A stretch of DNA of 52,161 nt from Actinomycetota bacterium (GTDB lineage Bacteria; Actinomycetota; Actinomycetes; Nanopelagicales; Nanopelagicaceae). Of this stretch, positions 10,905 through 44,008 are shown piece by piece. The position numbers were made by a program, and so were the translations under genes. Where the stretch lies: contig JAPLBF010000025.1 of the NCBI GenBank assembly GCA_026392825.1, forward strand, positions 1 to 52,161, given 5' to 3'. Below the pieces are notes generated by a model, which was not told where the DNA came from, did no database searches, and was given only the letters and a program-made list of their open reading frames with translations. The first letter of the stretch is position 1. Each line of letters starts with the position of its first letter.

Positions 10905-11810
10905 GTGAATGAGTTAAACGCTGCGCAAATTTTCGATCCCGAATTACGCGCATCTTACGAAGAATGTAAGCGTTTAAATTCCCTGCACGGAAAGACTTAT
11001 TACCTCGCCACACTTCTTCTTCCTGCGGAAAAGCGACCATTCGTTCACGCCTTGTACGGCTTTGCACGATACGCCGATGAAATTGTCGATGACTTAGCAT
11101 CCACGCTCTCACCTGCTGAAAAAGCAAAAGTTCTGCGAGAGTGGAGTTCAGAAGTTTTAGCGGGACTGAAATCCGGTTCCACTAGCGATGCTGTAGGTAA
11201 AGCACTAATCGATACCGTGCAGCGCTTTGCAATTCCGCATCAACACTTTGTGGATTTTCTACACTCTATGGAGATGGACTTAACCGTCACGCAATATAAG
11301 ACTTATGAGGATCTATACGAATACGTTTATGGTTCGGCAGCAGTAATTGGCTTGGAGATGGTTCCAATTCTGGGCGGCGATACCGTTAACTCCTTAGAAG
11401 CGGCGAAGGATCTTGGAGTGGCATTTCAATTAGCTAACTTTATTCGCGATGTCGGTGAAGATTTAGATCGTGGCCGGATTTACTTGCCACTTGATGAGTT
11501 AGCAGCACACGGCGTAACTCCCGAAATGCTTTATGCGCGCAAGTTAACTCCCGAAATTATTAGTGCTCTAAAGTTCCAAATAGCGCGGGTAAGGCGATTG
11601 CAAAAGGCGGCAGAACCTGGCATCGCGCTCCTTGATAAGACCAGCCAGCCATGTATTCGCGCCGCAAGTGAGCTCTACTGCGGAATAGTTGATGAGGTTG
11701 AAAAGATTGGCTATGACATCTTCAATAAGCGCGCAAAAACCTCCACGTTTCGCCGCGCACGAGTTGCTGCGCGCGCCTATTTAGACGCGGTAATCGCTCG
11801 CATCTGCTAA
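10905..11810 (+). CDS. crtB: Phytoene synthase
   Basis: 301 residues in the squalene/phytoene synthase family, condensing two GGPP into phytoene. The first Asp-rich motif is ARYADEIVDD at about residues 46-55, the second is NFIRDVGEDLDRGRIYLP near 179-196, and YVYGSAA is the conserved middle segment. The start is GTG 10905 directly after the crtI stop; the ATG at 10909 is in another frame. It is the last gene of crtE-crtI-crtB. No lycopene cyclase follows; the next element is a TPP riboswitch. Confidence 0.93.
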   Translation: MNELNAAQIFDPELRASYEECKRLNSLHGKTYYLATLLLPAEKRPFVHALYGFARYADEIVDDLASTLSPAEKAKVLREWSSEVLAGLKSGSTSDAVGKALIDTVQRFAIPHQHFVDFLHSMEMDLTVTQYKTYEDLYEYVYGSAAVIGLEMVPILGGDTVNSLEAAKDLGVAFQLANFIRDVGEDLDRGRIYLPLDELAAHGVTPEMLYARKLTPEIISALKFQIARVRRLQKAAEPGIALLDKTSQPCIRAASELYCGIVDEVEKIGYDIFNKRAKTSTFRRARVAARAYLDAVIARIC

Positions 11811-11816
11811 AGTAAC

Positions 11817-11903
11817 AATCGCGGGAGCCGCTAATACGGCTGAGAGGATCTGAGATTCAGATCGACCGCTAGACCCATCCGGTAATGCGGATGCGGAAAG
11901 GAA
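11817..11903 (+). ncRNA. TPP (thiamine pyrophosphate) riboswitch
   Basis: The 99-base gap between crtB and the transporter gene holds the conserved THI-box elements in order: GGGAGCC (about 11823-11829), CTGAGAGGA (about 11840-11848), GACC stretches and a closing ATCCGGTAATGCGGATG arm (about 11877-11893). A GGAAAGGA Shine-Dalgarno sits at the 3' end, about seven bases before ATG 11910. This suggests control of translation start by ligand-induced masking of the ribosome site. High TPP should switch the downstream genes off. Confidence 0.9.
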
Positions 11904-11909
11904 TGAATC

Positions 11910-12518
11910 ATGTCAATCTTTAATTTCTTATCTGATGTCTTGATAACTATTTGGGGTTATGAACTCTCATATCTAGAATTTGTCGCTGTAATCGCCTCGC
12001 TTATCGGAGTCGCACTTGGCATCACGGGTAAACGAATTACATGGCCGTGGTGGGCAATTAGTTCGGTTCTCTACGGAATCCTATTTTTGCAATGGGAACT
12101 ATTTGCAAGTGCCGCGTTGCAGATCGTCTTTATCATTGCCGCCATATTTGGCTGGTTTGGCTGGGAACCAAGTGGCGCAAAGCCGGGCCCGCTTAAAAAT
12201 AAATATCGCCTCGCTACCTTCGCTGCAATCATTCTGGCAACTCTGGCGCTTGCTCCAATCCTAAAATCTTGGGGCGCAGCTTCAACGTACGCTGATGCAG
12301 TTCTATTCTTTGGCTCACTTACCGCGCAAATTTTGATGGTCTACGAAAAGTATGAGAGTTGGATAATCTGGCTACTAGTTGATGCTGGTTACGTCGCCCT
12401 GTATGCCACACAGGATCTCTTATTCACTTCACTGCTCTATGTTGTATTTACAGTTCTGGCGGCGTTGGGATGGGGTAAATGGTATGGAGCTCATCGCAGC
12501 GCTACTAGATCTATGTAG
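11910..12518 (+). CDS. pnuT: PnuC-family vitamin transporter, probable thiamine transporter PnuT
   Basis: 202 residues with about seven membrane spans. The PnuC signature is present: LEFVAVIAS..., ITWPWWAISSVLYG, FLQWELFASAALQIVF and GWFGWE near residues 22-90, then the repeat half YEKYESWIIW and ALGWGKWYGAH. PnuC proteins move vitamins by facilitated diffusion and depend on intracellular phosphorylation to trap them. Substrate here is assigned as thiamine only because of the TPP riboswitch directly upstream; nicotinamide riboside is the alternative. The last 35 bases overlap the start of a P-loop kinase gene, which may do the trapping. Confidence 0.85.
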   Translation: MSIFNFLSDVLITIWGYELSYLEFVAVIASLIGVALGITGKRITWPWWAISSVLYGILFLQWELFASAALQIVFIIAAIFGWFGWEPSGAKPGPLKNKYRLATFAAIILATLALAPILKSWGAASTYADAVLFFGSLTAQILMVYEKYESWIIWLLVDAGYVALYATQDLLFTSLLYVVFTVLAALGWGKWYGAHRSATRSM

Positions 12519-13020
12519 CACCAAAGAACGCCCAGTAATCGCTATTGACGGTCCAGCCGGTGCCGGTAAGACAACTTTGGCACACGAAATATTCTTGGCA
12601 ATTTCACCAAGGATGTCAGTCAACGTTATACATATGGATGACTTATATGACGGATGGGATAACGCGCTGGGTGAGGATCTAACAAAGGTATTGACTCATA
12701 TATCTGATCAACATAAGCAAAAGAAGTCAGCGAAAATTAGTAAATACAATTGGGCCACATCTTCTTTTGAAGATAGCGAAGAATTGGCTCCCGCTGACTT
12801 ATTGATTCTGGAAGGAGTCGGCAGTGGCGATATGGCTATTCAAGATGATCTCGCCGCCCTAATATGGATTGATATCGACCCCGAAATTGGCGTTAAACGA
12901 GTTATTGAACGAGACGGTGCAAAAGTAGTCGATGAGATGCGCAAGTGGCTTAGAACACAAGAAGAATATTTCTCTCAACACTCAACGCGCGAAAAGGCAG
13001 ATTTCATACTAACTACATAA
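12484..13020 (+). CDS. P-loop kinase, uridine-kinase-like, overlapping pnuT
   Basis: 178 residues from ATG 12484, inside the pnuT 3' end. Walker A is GPAGAGKT at residues 23-30. MDDLYDGW at 51-58 matches the acceptor-site segment of uridine-kinase-like proteins, ILEGVGSG near 108 is Walker B-like, and a lid-like Arg region VIERDGAK follows. Related actinobacterial proteins are usually annotated only as ATP-binding or uridine-kinase family. It shares a transcript with pnuT below the TPP riboswitch, so a thiamine or hydroxymethylpyrimidine kinase is an attractive but unproved guess; a nucleoside kinase is the alternative. A TTG or GTG start closer to the pnuT stop cannot be excluded. Confidence 0.75.
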   Translation: MELIAALLDLCSTKERPVIAIDGPAGAGKTTLAHEIFLAISPRMSVNVIHMDDLYDGWDNALGEDLTKVLTHISDQHKQKKSAKISKYNWATSSFEDSEELAPADLLILEGVGSGDMAIQDDLAALIWIDIDPEIGVKRVIERDGAKVVDEMRKWLRTQEEYFSQHSTREKADFILTT

Positions 13021-13023
13021 AAT
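13018..13023 (+). promoter_or_regulatory. Predicted leaderless -10 box for pknB
   Basis: TAAAAT, seven bases before ATG 13031. The hexamer includes the stop codon of the preceding kinase gene, so pknB may have its own promoter despite the ten-base gap. Confidence 0.45.
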
Positions 13024-13030
13024 TGTAGAT

Positions 13031-14965
13031 ATGTCTGACCTTACTGGCGAGCTAATTGATGGGCGCTATCAACTCATCCGCCAGATGGCAGCAGGTGGCA
13101 TGGCCACAATTTATGAAGCGATAGATACGCGCTTAGATCGCAGAGTTGCCGTAAAAATCATGCATCCGCATTTAGCGCAAGATGAACAATTTGTAGAACG
13201 CTTTATTCGCGAGGCAAAGGCATCAGCCGCCTTATCTCATCCAAATATTGTCTCGGTGCAAGATCAAGGTTGGAATCAGCACGGAAGCCCCGCAGTCTTC
13301 TTGGTAATGGAATTGGTCGAGGGACATACCCTGCGCGAATATTTAAATGAGCAAGGTGCGCTTACCGTTGCCGCTGGAATTAAATTTTTGCTGCCGGTCT
13401 TAAGCGCTTTAGCGGCCGCACACAAATTAGGAATCGTGCATCGCGATATAAAACCTGACAATATTCTTATCTCCAAAGAAGGAAGAATCAAGATAGCTGA
13501 TTTTGGTTTGGCTAAGGGTCCACTTCTTGGAACCACGATGACGGCCGAGTCGAGCATTGTTTTAGGTAGCGTTTCCTATCTCTCCCCCGAACAAGTCCAG
13601 CGTGGTGTTGCTGATGCGCGAAGCGACGTTTATTCAGCCGGCATAACCGCCTTTGAAATCTTTACTGGTGAAAAACCTTTTGCGGGTGATGAGCCAATTC
13701 AAATTGCTTATATGCATGTCAATGAGCGCGTTCCTCTTATGAGCACCAAGCGCAGTGGAATTCCAACTGAGTTAGATCAGCTGATATATCGCGCAACCAA
13801 CTCTGATCCGGATGCTCGTCCTGTCGATGGTGCGGAATTCCACCAAGCGCTCACTGCGATTTCTCAAGCACTTGATCCAAATCAGAAACAATTGAGTTTG
13901 GAATTGGATATACCGATTGCTCCGATGCGCCCGGCATCGAAGAAACCATCTCGCCGAGAACGGGCGCGTATCGAAAAGGAAAAAACTGTGGCTCTAAAGA
14001 AGGCTGAAGATACCGGCGAAAATAAAAAATCAGGTGGTAAAGAGACGACTGCGCAACTGCGTAAGAAGAAAAAAGTTAGCAAACGCGTGCGACGTAATCG
14101 ATACATCGCTGCGGCGCTAGCGATCGCCCTCGGTATTGGTGGTTGGTATGCACTTGTAGGTCCGGGTTCTAAAGTTGTGGTTCCTTCGATTGTTGGCGCT
14201 ACCGAAAAGCAGGCGAATAAAGTGCTGAGTCCACTTGGACTCACTTTGCTTATCTCTGAAAAGCGATTTGATGAGGAGATCCAAAGTGGGCGGATTATCG
14301 AATCTGATCCTGCGGGTGGTGGCAAGGTTGATGCCGGAGGCGAAGTAAAGGTGATTATTTCAAAAGGACCAGAGCGTTATGAGATTCCATCTTTGGTTGG
14401 TTTAACACCTGAAGCCGCGGTTAACTTACTTGCAAAGTTCCCAGTCAAGGTTGGAGAGCTAAAAGAAGTATTTAACGAGAAGACTCCGAAAGGTTTTGTT
14501 ATCTCAACTTCACCGGCTGCAGGTGAGAAAGTTAAGCGAGATTCAACGGTTGATCTACTAATTAGCAAAGGTGTAGAAACTGTTGAAGTTGCTTCATATG
14601 TTGGCAAGTCATCTGATCAAGCCCTAAACGAGTTAACTGAAGCTGGATTCGATGTTGATACCGTTGACCAATTTAGTGAAAGCGTCTTGGCCGGTGCTGT
14701 TATTTCGCAAGTTCCATCTGGTGGAGCTCCATTGGAAAAGGGCGCAAAGATTGCTTTAACGATCTCTAAAGGTTCGCAATTTGTCTTTATCCCAAATGTC
14801 TTCTCGCTAACTGAAACAAAGGCACGTGAGGCGCTAAACGATCTCGAACTTAAAGTTGTGGTCAAAAAGATTGGCGTAAAGAAGGTTAAGGCGGTAACAA
14901 ATATCTCGCCTAAAGTCGGCGCAAAGGTCAAACGAGGCAGCACGGTGACTATCACTGTAGGGTAG
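13031..14965 (+). CDS. pknB: Transmembrane Ser/Thr protein kinase with four PASTA domains
   Basis: 644 residues. The kinase domain spans about 10-275, with glycine loop MAAGGMATIYEA, catalytic Lys in VAVKIMH, HRDIKPDN loop and DFG in IADFGLAK. A Lys/Arg-rich juxtamembrane linker (about 290-355) leads to one membrane helix near 357-377. The outside part has four PASTA repeats of about 66 residues, beginning near 382, 450, 516 and 583. PASTA kinases sense peptidoglycan fragments and control cell-wall growth and division. It is not next to rodA/pbp genes here, unlike the usual pknAB locus. Downstream, nfo starts four bases after its stop. Confidence 0.93.
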   Translation: MSDLTGELIDGRYQLIRQMAAGGMATIYEAIDTRLDRRVAVKIMHPHLAQDEQFVERFIREAKASAALSHPNIVSVQDQGWNQHGSPAVFLVMELVEGHTLREYLNEQGALTVAAGIKFLLPVLSALAAAHKLGIVHRDIKPDNILISKEGRIKIADFGLAKGPLLGTTMTAESSIVLGSVSYLSPEQVQRGVADARSDVYSAGITAFEIFTGEKPFAGDEPIQIAYMHVNERVPLMSTKRSGIPTELDQLIYRATNSDPDARPVDGAEFHQALTAISQALDPNQKQLSLELDIPIAPMRPASKKPSRRERARIEKEKTVALKKAEDTGENKKSGGKETTAQLRKKKKVSKRVRRNRYIAAALAIALGIGGWYALVGPGSKVVVPSIVGATEKQANKVLSPLGLTLLISEKRFDEEIQSGRIIESDPAGGGKVDAGGEVKVIISKGPERYEIPSLVGLTPEAAVNLLAKFPVKVGELKEVFNEKTPKGFVISTSPAAGEKVKRDSTVDLLISKGVETVEVASYVGKSSDQALNELTEAGFDVDTVDQFSESVLAGAVISQVPSGGAPLEKGAKIALTISKGSQFVFIPNVFSLTETKAREALNDLELKVVVKKIGVKKVKAVTNISPKVGAKVKRGSTVTITVG

Positions 14966-42792: not shown

Positions 42793-43881
42793 CTATATTA
42801 TACTCAAGGCTTGGACGATCGCGGCGCCAACTGCCTCAGATTCCACCAAAAAGCCATCGTGTCCGAACTCTGATGAGATCGTAATCAACGGCGCTGCCTG
42901 CGGAACCAGCTCTGCAACCTCAACCTGAAGTCGAGGTGGGAAGAGGCGATCGGTATCAATTGAGACCACAACCACGGGAATATTGATCGATTCCAGCGCT
43001 TTTACTACCCCGCCGCGGTCGCGCCCAACATCGTGCGAGGCCATCGCTGAAGTTAGCGAGATATAGGTATTGGCATCAAAGCGTTTGGCTAATTTATCGG
43101 CCTGATGATCAAGGTATGACTCAACGGCGTAACGCCCGGTCTCATCCCCCTGCATTTGGCGTCCAAAACGCACATCCATCTCAGATTCGGTGCGATAGGT
43201 CAGGTGCGCAATGCGGCGAGCGATTCCCATTCCCTCAATCGGGCCAATTTCCTGCTCGTAATAATCGCCGCCGTTAAAGTTTGGATCTGTTTTGATTGCG
43301 CGGATTTGTACAGAGAATCCACCGATCTGATCACCAGTTGCAACCGCTGATGAACCGATTGTGCAGATTGCGCTAACTCGATCAGGATGTTCAATCGCCC
43401 ATTCCAGCGAGCGCATTCCACCAAGTGATGGACCAACGGCGAGGCGATATTTCTTAATACCGATTGCGTCAGAAAATAAAATTTCCGCCTTTGCCATATC
43501 TCGAACCGTCACAATTGGAAAACGTGAACCGTAACGCTTTCCATCTGGTGCAATGCTAGATGGCCCAGTACTTCCCTGACATCCGCCGATTACATTGGGG
43601 CATACGATGAAATATTTATTGGTCTTAAAGGGCAAACCCGGTCCAACCATATTTGGCCACCACGAAGTTACATCTGACCAACCGGTCATCGCGTGATTAA
43701 TCAAGATCGCATTATCTTTGGCGGCGCTTAGCTGGCCCCAAGATTGATACGCGATAGTTATATCCGGCAGTGTTTCGCCGTTTTCAAGTAAGAGGAAACC
43801 GATCTTTACAAATTTGCGCTCGCCCACATCGTGGCCATCAAGCCACGCTCCGGTTACTTGCGAAGTTATCTCTTTAGACAT
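42793..43881 (-). CDS. metX: Homoserine O-acetyltransferase
   Basis: 362 residues, alpha/beta-hydrolase fold. Nucleophile Ser is in [14 protein letters not shown] near residue 146, preceded by the family marks NHAMTGWSD and [13 protein letters not shown]; the catalytic His is in [10 protein letters not shown] near 345. It transfers acetyl from acetyl-CoA to homoserine for methionine synthesis. A SAM-IV riboswitch lies directly upstream, and GAAGGA before ATG 43881 is the ribosome site. The usual partner metY is not in the window. Confidence 0.92.
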
Positions 43882-43896
43882 TAGCCAAATCCTTCA

Positions 43897-44008
43897 CGCA
43901 CTTGCCCACATCATTTGATGTAAGCCTGGTCGTCACCCGGAGCACCCCACCGCGGTGGAGGGTTGCCGCCTAATCAGCCGGGGCTATCGATTAGAACTCG
44001 TGACCTGG
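43897..44008 (-). ncRNA. SAM-IV riboswitch
   Basis: On the minus strand the conserved SAM-IV elements appear in order: CCAGGTCACGAG, GCCCCGGC, GGCGGCAACCCTCC, ACCGCGGTGGGGTGCTCCGGGTGA and the closing CGACCAGG, then a 3' hairpin ACATCAAATGATGT and GGGCAAGTGCG that forms the pseudoknot. It is typical of actinobacteria. The element ends about 16 bases before the metX ATG, with the Shine-Dalgarno between, so high SAM probably reduces metX expression. Confidence 0.93.

Follow-up and report, generated by a model that had tools for sequence, protein, structure and literature searches.

A pnuT and P-loop kinase operon behind a variant TPP-type riboswitch in Planktophila, with a candidate thiamine kinase

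Organisation and constancy of the pnuT-kinase locus

The window analysed here is a 52,161-nucleotide stretch of DNA from a 1.38 Mb, 97% complete genome (G000) of the acI/Planktophila group. A TPP-type riboswitch, pnuT and a gene for a P-loop kinase form a single unit in Planktophila (acI Actinobacteria), with the coordinates in the window listed in Table 1. On its 5' side lies a gene (10905-11810, + strand) that we take, by eye, to be crtB-like, and on its 3' side one (13031-14965, + strand) that presumably encodes a Ser/Thr-protein-kinase-like product; both are outside the unit, with the former marking the chromosomal spot. Inspection by eye placed a crtB-like gene upstream in L171, L172, L174, L175, L178, L180, L181, L189 and L190 as well, an idsA-like gene in the same position in L176, L177 and L179, and a Ser/Thr-protein-kinase-like neighbour in L171-L181, L188 and L189. 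Elsewhere in the window, a SAM-IV riboswitch (43893-44005, - strand, 102.8 bits) is located directly 5' of an ORF (42793-43881, - strand) that by eye resembles homoserine O-acetyltransferase.

Table 1. Features of the riboswitch-pnuT-kinase unit in the window.
Feature	Position	Strand	Basis or remark
Possible -10 box TAAAGT	11808..11813	+	overlaps the crtB stop codon
Variant TPP-type riboswitch	11811..11917	+	extent of the RF00059 match
P2 (11821-11824/11866-11869), P3 and P3a arm; invariant CUGAGAGG core, CTGAGA at 11840-11845	11821..11869	+	fold, 77-sequence alignment, pair counts
P4/P5 arm: helix with a single bulged pyrimidine (11894) and L5 loop (11882-11887), without the 2x2 internal loop	11874..11896	+	
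AAAGGA, probable Shine-Dalgarno sequence, directly 3' of P4	11897..11902	+	by eye; 7 nt to ATG
pnuT, PnuC-family carrier, putative thiamine carrier	11910..12518	+	PF04973, TIGR01528
P-loop kinase, 178 aa, ATG at 12484; candidate thiamine kinase (thiamine to TMP)	12484..13020	+	PF00485, NF005115/PRK06547, AlphaFold model
pnuT/kinase reading-frame overlap, 35 bases	12484..12518	+	

The product of pnuT belongs to the PnuC family (PF04973, E=3.9e-38, 131.6 bits against a cut-off of 27.3; TIGR01528, 78 bits), in agreement with an earlier reading, made from the sequence alone, that had called it a PnuT-type transporter. Thiamine is its putative cargo, judging from the riboswitch and the genomic context. 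A PnuT search of named genomes yielded 109 relatives, the best 80 of which were used as loci. The sequence-only reading had suggested a check of whether the kinase gene always follows pnuT in relatives, and it was found directly 3' of pnuT in all 80 named loci, down to 42% kinase identity (L107 is counted although a contig end cuts its kinase). Some G loci and named loci represent identical genomes, and the operon count was therefore restricted to the named loci. In most relatives the kinase start codon precedes the last base of the pnuT stop codon by 16-34 bases, with other spacings including -76, -100 and -3, and the overlap probably reflects translational coupling. No match to the window PnuT was obtained in a single scan of viral contigs. 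The acI locus also turned up in several metagenome-assembled public records under the titles Bifidobacterium breve, Streptomyces griseus and Streptomycetaceae (L031, L032, L047 and others), and these titles look mislabelled.

The second gene had been described as encoding a uridine-kinase-like P-loop protein that overlaps pnuT by 35 bases, and both points hold. The protein matches PF00485 (PRK/Udk; E=1.3e-8, 35.3 bits, cut-off 22), which places it in the P-loop uridine kinase/PRK superfamily. Its closest curated model is NF005115/PRK06547, a 'hypothetical protein' (93.3 bits, below the cut-off of 173), which is also the best NCBIfam match of four other family members tested, including one from family f39 (see below) and one distant homologue. 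The score against the udk model TIGR00235 is far below its cut-off (37.1 versus 220.3 bits). Among the Pfam matches listed, which reach E=0.042 and are headed by PF00485, there is neither PF01636 (APH) nor PF04263 (the ThiN catalytic domain). The AlphaFold model (pLDDT 94.6) has a fold of the uridine kinase/phosphoribulokinase/pantothenate kinase type, with VIA Z scores of 18.3 for both 1rz3 (rmsd 2.5, 161 aligned) and 1uej (2.4, 163), 18.1 for M. tuberculosis PanK and 12.1 for NRK1; an NRK profile matches the kinase weakly (E=0.003).

An alignment of 47 operon kinases contains 24 invariant columns, including the P-loop residues, D52, Y55, G57-W58, W90, E110-G111, W128, R139, R143-D144 and W155. 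In ten kinases encoded without an adjacent pnuT, D52, Y55, W58, W90, E110, R139, R143 and D144 are kept throughout, W128 and G57 are present in 9 of 10, and W155 is found in five, with Phe in the other five; the P-loop is kept save for one Ala-to-Val and Thr/Ser changes. Among 13 distant homologues, W90 occurs in 13, W128 in 12 and W155 in 13, while positions 136 and 152, which are Gly and Met in the operon kinases, are Arg in 9 and Trp in 11, respectively. Uridine kinases have a catalytic Asp, and by analogy D52 is likely the general base of the window kinase; W90, adjacent to the beta-hairpin, is likely a ring-stacking residue.

A TPP-type riboswitch with a closed P4/P5 arm

In a search of 301 bases, the region upstream of pnuT matched RF00059 with 39.2 bits (E=1.8e-6), below the Rfam gathering score of 54.3; a search of the whole source genome with RF00059 at E<=0.001 gave no match. 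The match is real and not due to chance, because a CTGAGA core lies at most 200 bases upstream of pnuT in all 108 loci that include the start of pnuT in their record (L006 and L017, without the start, are outside this count) and because 77 distinct copies of the element show covariation. A model built in this analysis (R1) scores the window element at 103.1 bits, the window being among the sequences used to build it. L055, truncated at a contig start, and L107, whose kinase is incomplete, were excluded before alignment.

The pyrimidine-sensing CUGAGA core of the P2/P3 arm is invariant across the 77 distinct sequences. The proposed pairs are formed in 97.9% of cells compared with 23-40% in slid controls, and both sides change in 9 of 21 pairs, counts that are biased in favour of the structure scored, as it was derived from the fold of the window element and from the same alignment. 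Within the P4/P5 arm, column pair 81-101 is CG in 53 sequences and UA in 18, and pair 82-99 is CG in 45, GC in 22 and AU in 6; these exchanges demonstrate that the arm is a true helix. One of five covariation measures, the number of further pair types (17), was not above shuffles (mean 17.8); in 22 of the 77 sequences the outer pair of P2 does not form. A P1 stem is absent from the fold, and none was seen by eye in the alignment.

The P4/P5 arm was also folded alone for 111 variant elements, some of them duplicates (106 from loci, 77 of these distinct, and 5 typed). No unpaired base is present on the 5' side in 110 of them, and 98 have a single 3' bulge. The J4/5-J5/4 internal loop is missing from 110/111 variants, the P4/P5 arm being closed to a helix. 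Within the same bacterial family, 17 other TPP elements (upstream of thiB, thiC, thiO, cytX or ykoE) were folded for comparison; 16 have the usual interrupted arm, and the boundaries of the 17th had been set wrongly by the script. CTGATC occurs in two of the 111 variants: in G160 it falls within P3a, in L108 within the coding part. The variant is the sole TPP-type element found in eight PnuT genomes with an RF00059 match; G013 and G117 have no such match, yet R1 detects the variant in both.

The sequence-only reading had placed a TPP riboswitch before pnuT. The element itself stands, and what that reading missed is that it is a variant without the pyrophosphate-pocket loop. According to the passages seen of PMC4775224, it is the P4/P5 arm that makes contact with the pyrophosphate in known TPP riboswitches, and docking of thiamine or TMP is incomplete. 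The variant element retains the pyrimidine-sensing core and L5. Either the phosphates would be read in some other way, or the ligand would have switched to thiamine or TMP.

A TANNNT motif is located 10-22 nt 5' of GGGAGC, mostly at -15/-16, in 105/105 relatives compared with about 30 expected from shuffles, although the crtB stop codon contributes part of the motif, so that its fixed position is weaker evidence than the count implies. The transcript may begin at the aptamer, because TANNNT stands at a near-constant distance before it.

Thiamine pathway genes, apparent importer exchange and distant homologues

Thiamine pathway genes were surveyed in 21 genomes of the genus, 20 of which have a completeness of 90% or more and a contamination of 5% or less, and in 151 genomes of the family, spanning 15 genera. 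The sequence-only reading had raised the question of whether relatives lack thiN, and had counted a separate thiN against its own proposal. ThiN (PF04263) was found in none of the 21 genus genomes, the source genome included, and in none of the 151 family genomes. No ThiE (PF02581) over the cut-off was found in the 21 genus genomes, where two matches are weak and partial. ThiL (TIGR01379) passes its cut-off in 18 of the 21, with 188.2 bits in the source genome; the other three are G042 (183.6 versus 184.15), G046 (a fragment) and G009 (a 44.6-bit match). The substrate of ThiL is TMP. With no ThiE, the TMP for ThiL should come from thiamine, and a thiamine kinase would therefore be needed.

The E. 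coli thiamine kinase ThiK has the APH fold, and some APH matches occur in 20 of the 21 genus genomes. Those of G001, G035, G039, G049 and G051 are only partial (36 to 59 positions) in frames of 480-542 aa, and in the one-contig genomes G039 and G051 the match spans 46 positions in a frame of 520-540 aa. A ThiK encoded elsewhere in the genome was rejected as the general answer, because G042 has no APH match and these five genomes have partial matches only. Other kinases could phosphorylate thiamine. By pathway logic, the kinase of the window is the best candidate for the step that is missing, thiamine to TMP.

In the family sample, the kinase was detected at E<=8.6e-29 in 145 of the 151 genomes, with four weak matches (1e-4 to 5e-4) scored as absent. 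It is missing from G128, G147, G190, G213, G211 and G217; the last two are approximately 80% complete, and in G211 the contig ends within pnuT (L190). Full ThiE matches (E<=3.6e-49) are found in six family genomes (G103, G135, G128, G147, G190 and G213), and weak partial ones in 13 more; one of the latter, in G112, passes the cut-off only together with its neighbours in the frame. The kinase is missing in 4 of the 6 ThiE genomes versus 2 of the 145 others (Fisher p=1e-5), a p-value that overstates independence as the contrast comes from few lineages (genera g43 and g50). G103 and G135 have ThiE and keep the kinase.

In the two genomes examined at this site, G128 and G213, thiO, thiG and thiE fill the spot before the protein-kinase gene, which is the pnuT-kinase site in the window. 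They are preceded by a TPP riboswitch over the gathering score (60.7 bits in G128, 60.5 bits in G213) and adjoin crtB-like genes in G128 and an idsA-like gene in G213. When L188 and L189, from two genomes of other genera, are set beside 10905-14965 of the window, the interval from the carotenoid-type genes to the protein-kinase gene appears as an exchange spot for thiamine genes (thiO-thiG-thiE versus pnuT-kinase). A CytX-like permease lies behind a TPP riboswitch in G128 and G147 (TIGR02358, 205 bits for G128, cut-off 310), CytX being annotated as a putative HMP transporter.

At its usual spot, but without an adjacent pnuT by tblastn, the kinase is found in ten genomes (G103, G135, G146, G161, G165, G173, G188, G193, G202 and G208). 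G029 and G170, which likewise have a kinase and no strong variant element, were omitted from this set, as the kinase or pnuT lies at the very end of the contig. A TPP riboswitch is present elsewhere in each of the ten, before ThiB in nine and before a YkoE-like gene (PF09819) in G135. ThiB was identified by TIGR01254 in G202 (225 bits), G161 (228 bits) and G208 (198 bits), and in the other six by 52-80% tblastn identity to the G202 protein; ThiP follows in 8 of 9, the G173 contig ending in thiB. The thiB elements of G103 (52.1), G165 (47.9) and G173 (38.5) are under the gathering score. The importer seems to have been swapped more than once while the kinase was retained, because pnu-linked and pnu-less kinases intermingle in the tree. 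Such a pattern is as expected for an enzyme whose substrate is thiamine brought in by any importer. Of the family kinases examined, the one that diverges most (L181, 4294-4842, in G208) shows 30% identity and a very long branch; its genome has ThiB, and its function may have drifted.

A second family, f39, has the variant element, pnuT and the kinase in 4/4 examined genomes, at a different, tRNA-adjacent place. Its elements score 54-60 bits with R1 and, in 3 of 4, 33-38 bits with RF00059, and all four fold without a 5' loop in the P4/P5 arm. PnuT is 51-55% and the kinase 33-39% identical to the window proteins, and the f39 kinases group with distant homologues in the tree, apart from those of the own family. 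The trio lies beside a tRNA gene in L222-L225, where it could have been transferred at the tRNA site.

Of 394 class genomes, 262 have kinase homologues at E<=1e-10, including 40 from the own family. The sequence-only reading had remarked that this protein family also occurs in actinobacteria away from thiamine genes; 29 distant loci (13 and 16 from two sets) were examined. No thiamine link was found within a few kb and no TPP element was detected, at the Rfam gathering score in 28 of the loci and with model R1 in all 29. The tblastn queries were ThiC, ThiD, ThiE, ThiG, ThiM, ThiO, ThiB, ThiP, YkoE, CytX and PnuT; their matches were confined to a permease in L231 (42 bits) and a PnuX-like gene in L240 (G460). 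The latter and the FMN riboswitch before it (1387-2383 in all) lie approximately 2 kb from the kinase homologue on the opposite strand, which was taken as a coincidence and not as a thiamine link. A kinase gene lying mostly apart from pnuT had been named as an argument against a thiamine role: this is false within the family and probably true class-wide. The general role of the family could differ, because homologues are widespread and the 29 distant loci have no thiamine link.

It is conceivable that the window enzyme phosphorylates nucleosides or other small molecules and stands in the operon by accident, as its PF00485 uridine-kinase family, wide occurrence and unlinked distant loci might suggest. 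We consider this improbable, given an operon kept in every named locus down to 42% kinase identity, a frame overlap in most of them, the same trio in a second family, a kinase that correlates with thiamine import and a udk score so far below the cut-off.

Proposed route from imported thiamine to TPP and comparison with known systems

We propose that the locus is a thiamine scavenging unit and put the probability of this reading at roughly 0.78. Thiamine would enter through PnuT, and the kinase would phosphorylate its hydroxyethyl group with ATP, yielding TMP and trapping the vitamin; ThiL, encoded elsewhere, would then convert TMP to TPP. The variant riboswitch would run from near the 5' end of the transcript to the ribosome binding site, such that a plentiful thiamine compound bound by the leader hides this site and represses pnuT translation, with the 35-base overlap coupling kinase translation to that of pnuT. 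Gene order, its conservation, the presence or absence of ThiL, ThiN and ThiE, and an RNA structure evident from covariation are the observations on which the proposal builds. Substrate, product and transport are predicted from these, as are the transcript start, repression and ligand.

The sequence-only reading had suggested a possible thiamine kinase. As a putative assignment this is strongly supported by genomic context, because the operon is constant, ThiL is present without ThiN or ThiE, the kinase is kept with ThiB or YkoE and missing in 4/6 ThiE genomes, and the trio recurs in a second family; missing from that reading was the expected product, TMP for ThiL. A bolder version, in which the riboswitch is a specificity variant without a pyrophosphate pocket that senses thiamine or TMP and the kinase is the founder of a non-APH thiamine kinase family, perhaps serving salvage across Actinobacteria, is tentative and somewhat unlikely. 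To our knowledge, many Actinobacteria lack ThiN.

The absence of ThiN from all 151 family genomes would equally be filled by a one-step thiamine pyrophosphokinase (thiamine to TPP), with ThiL only recycling TMP from TPP breakdown. Kinases of the uridine kinase/PRK/PanK group transfer one phosphate, however, and the fold and motifs are those of this group; in addition, ThiL is retained in streamlined genomes, which is most easily explained by TMP as an obligatory intermediate. A one-step enzyme is accordingly given only a slim chance.

PnuC carriers pair with nicotinamide riboside (NR) kinases, and a PnuC-type NR carrier with an NRK-like kinase under a riboswitch of changed ligand would accommodate PnuC as the closest named family, NRK1 as a distant structural match (Z 12.1) and the atypical riboswitch. 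This is very improbable, as NRK1 scores far lower than uridine and pantothenate kinases (Z 16-18), the CUGAGA core does not vary, and sister genomes pair the kinase with ThiB or YkoE behind TPP riboswitches. That the kinase acts on HMP or a thiazole precursor is hardly credible either: PnuT-like carriers could in principle carry precursors, but without ThiE (0/21 over the cut-off) phosphorylated precursors cannot be joined, and G128 and G147 have the CytX-like permease yet lack the kinase.

For the scavenging unit, the kinase is a named candidate for the single missing step, so that the route from imported thiamine to TPP becomes testable, and an actinobacterial 'hypothetical protein' family of wide conservation would acquire a function that can be tested. 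The RNA represents a natural experiment on losing half of a bipartite ligand pocket, with the ordinary copies in sister genomes as controls. Unable to synthesise vitamin B1, these very abundant lake bacteria appear to take it up and retain it by means of a kinase with no known role of this kind, under an RNA switch that lacks the pocket by which the phosphates of the vitamin are normally recognised.

In the passages found of Kang et al. 2017 (PMC5301498), pnuT is described behind a THI element in acI genomes, the strains are called thiamine auxotrophs, and nearly all enzymes of de novo synthesis and salvage are reported missing. The pnuT and riboswitch are the same as ours; the kinase, ThiL and the variant aptamer are unmentioned in those passages. 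In the open-access literature, screened by title and abstract start, we found no paper naming the kinase as a thiamine kinase or describing the aptamer variant. We regard as new the kinase as the candidate missing enzyme, the evidence of importer exchange, the second family and the variant aptamer.

Compared with the TPP riboswitch RF00059, the window element shares the CUGAGA core, the P2/P3/P3a arm, UAAU in L5 and a putative thiamine transport gene, but differs in its closed P4/P5 internal loop, the lack of a visible P1 and a score of 39.2 versus 54.3 bits. The window kinase is below the cut-off of NF005115/PRK06547, and most distant homologues have other residues at its positions 136 and 152. 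PnuT-ThiN thiamine salvage operates in Bacteroidetes and others; the likeness lies in a PnuC-family carrier under a TPP-type riboswitch beside a trapping enzyme, whereas the enzyme here is unrelated to ThiN, which is found in 0/151 family genomes. With E. coli ThiK/YcfN the window enzyme would share the reaction proposed, thiamine to TMP feeding ThiL, but it is a P-loop kinase that matches PF00485 and not APH.
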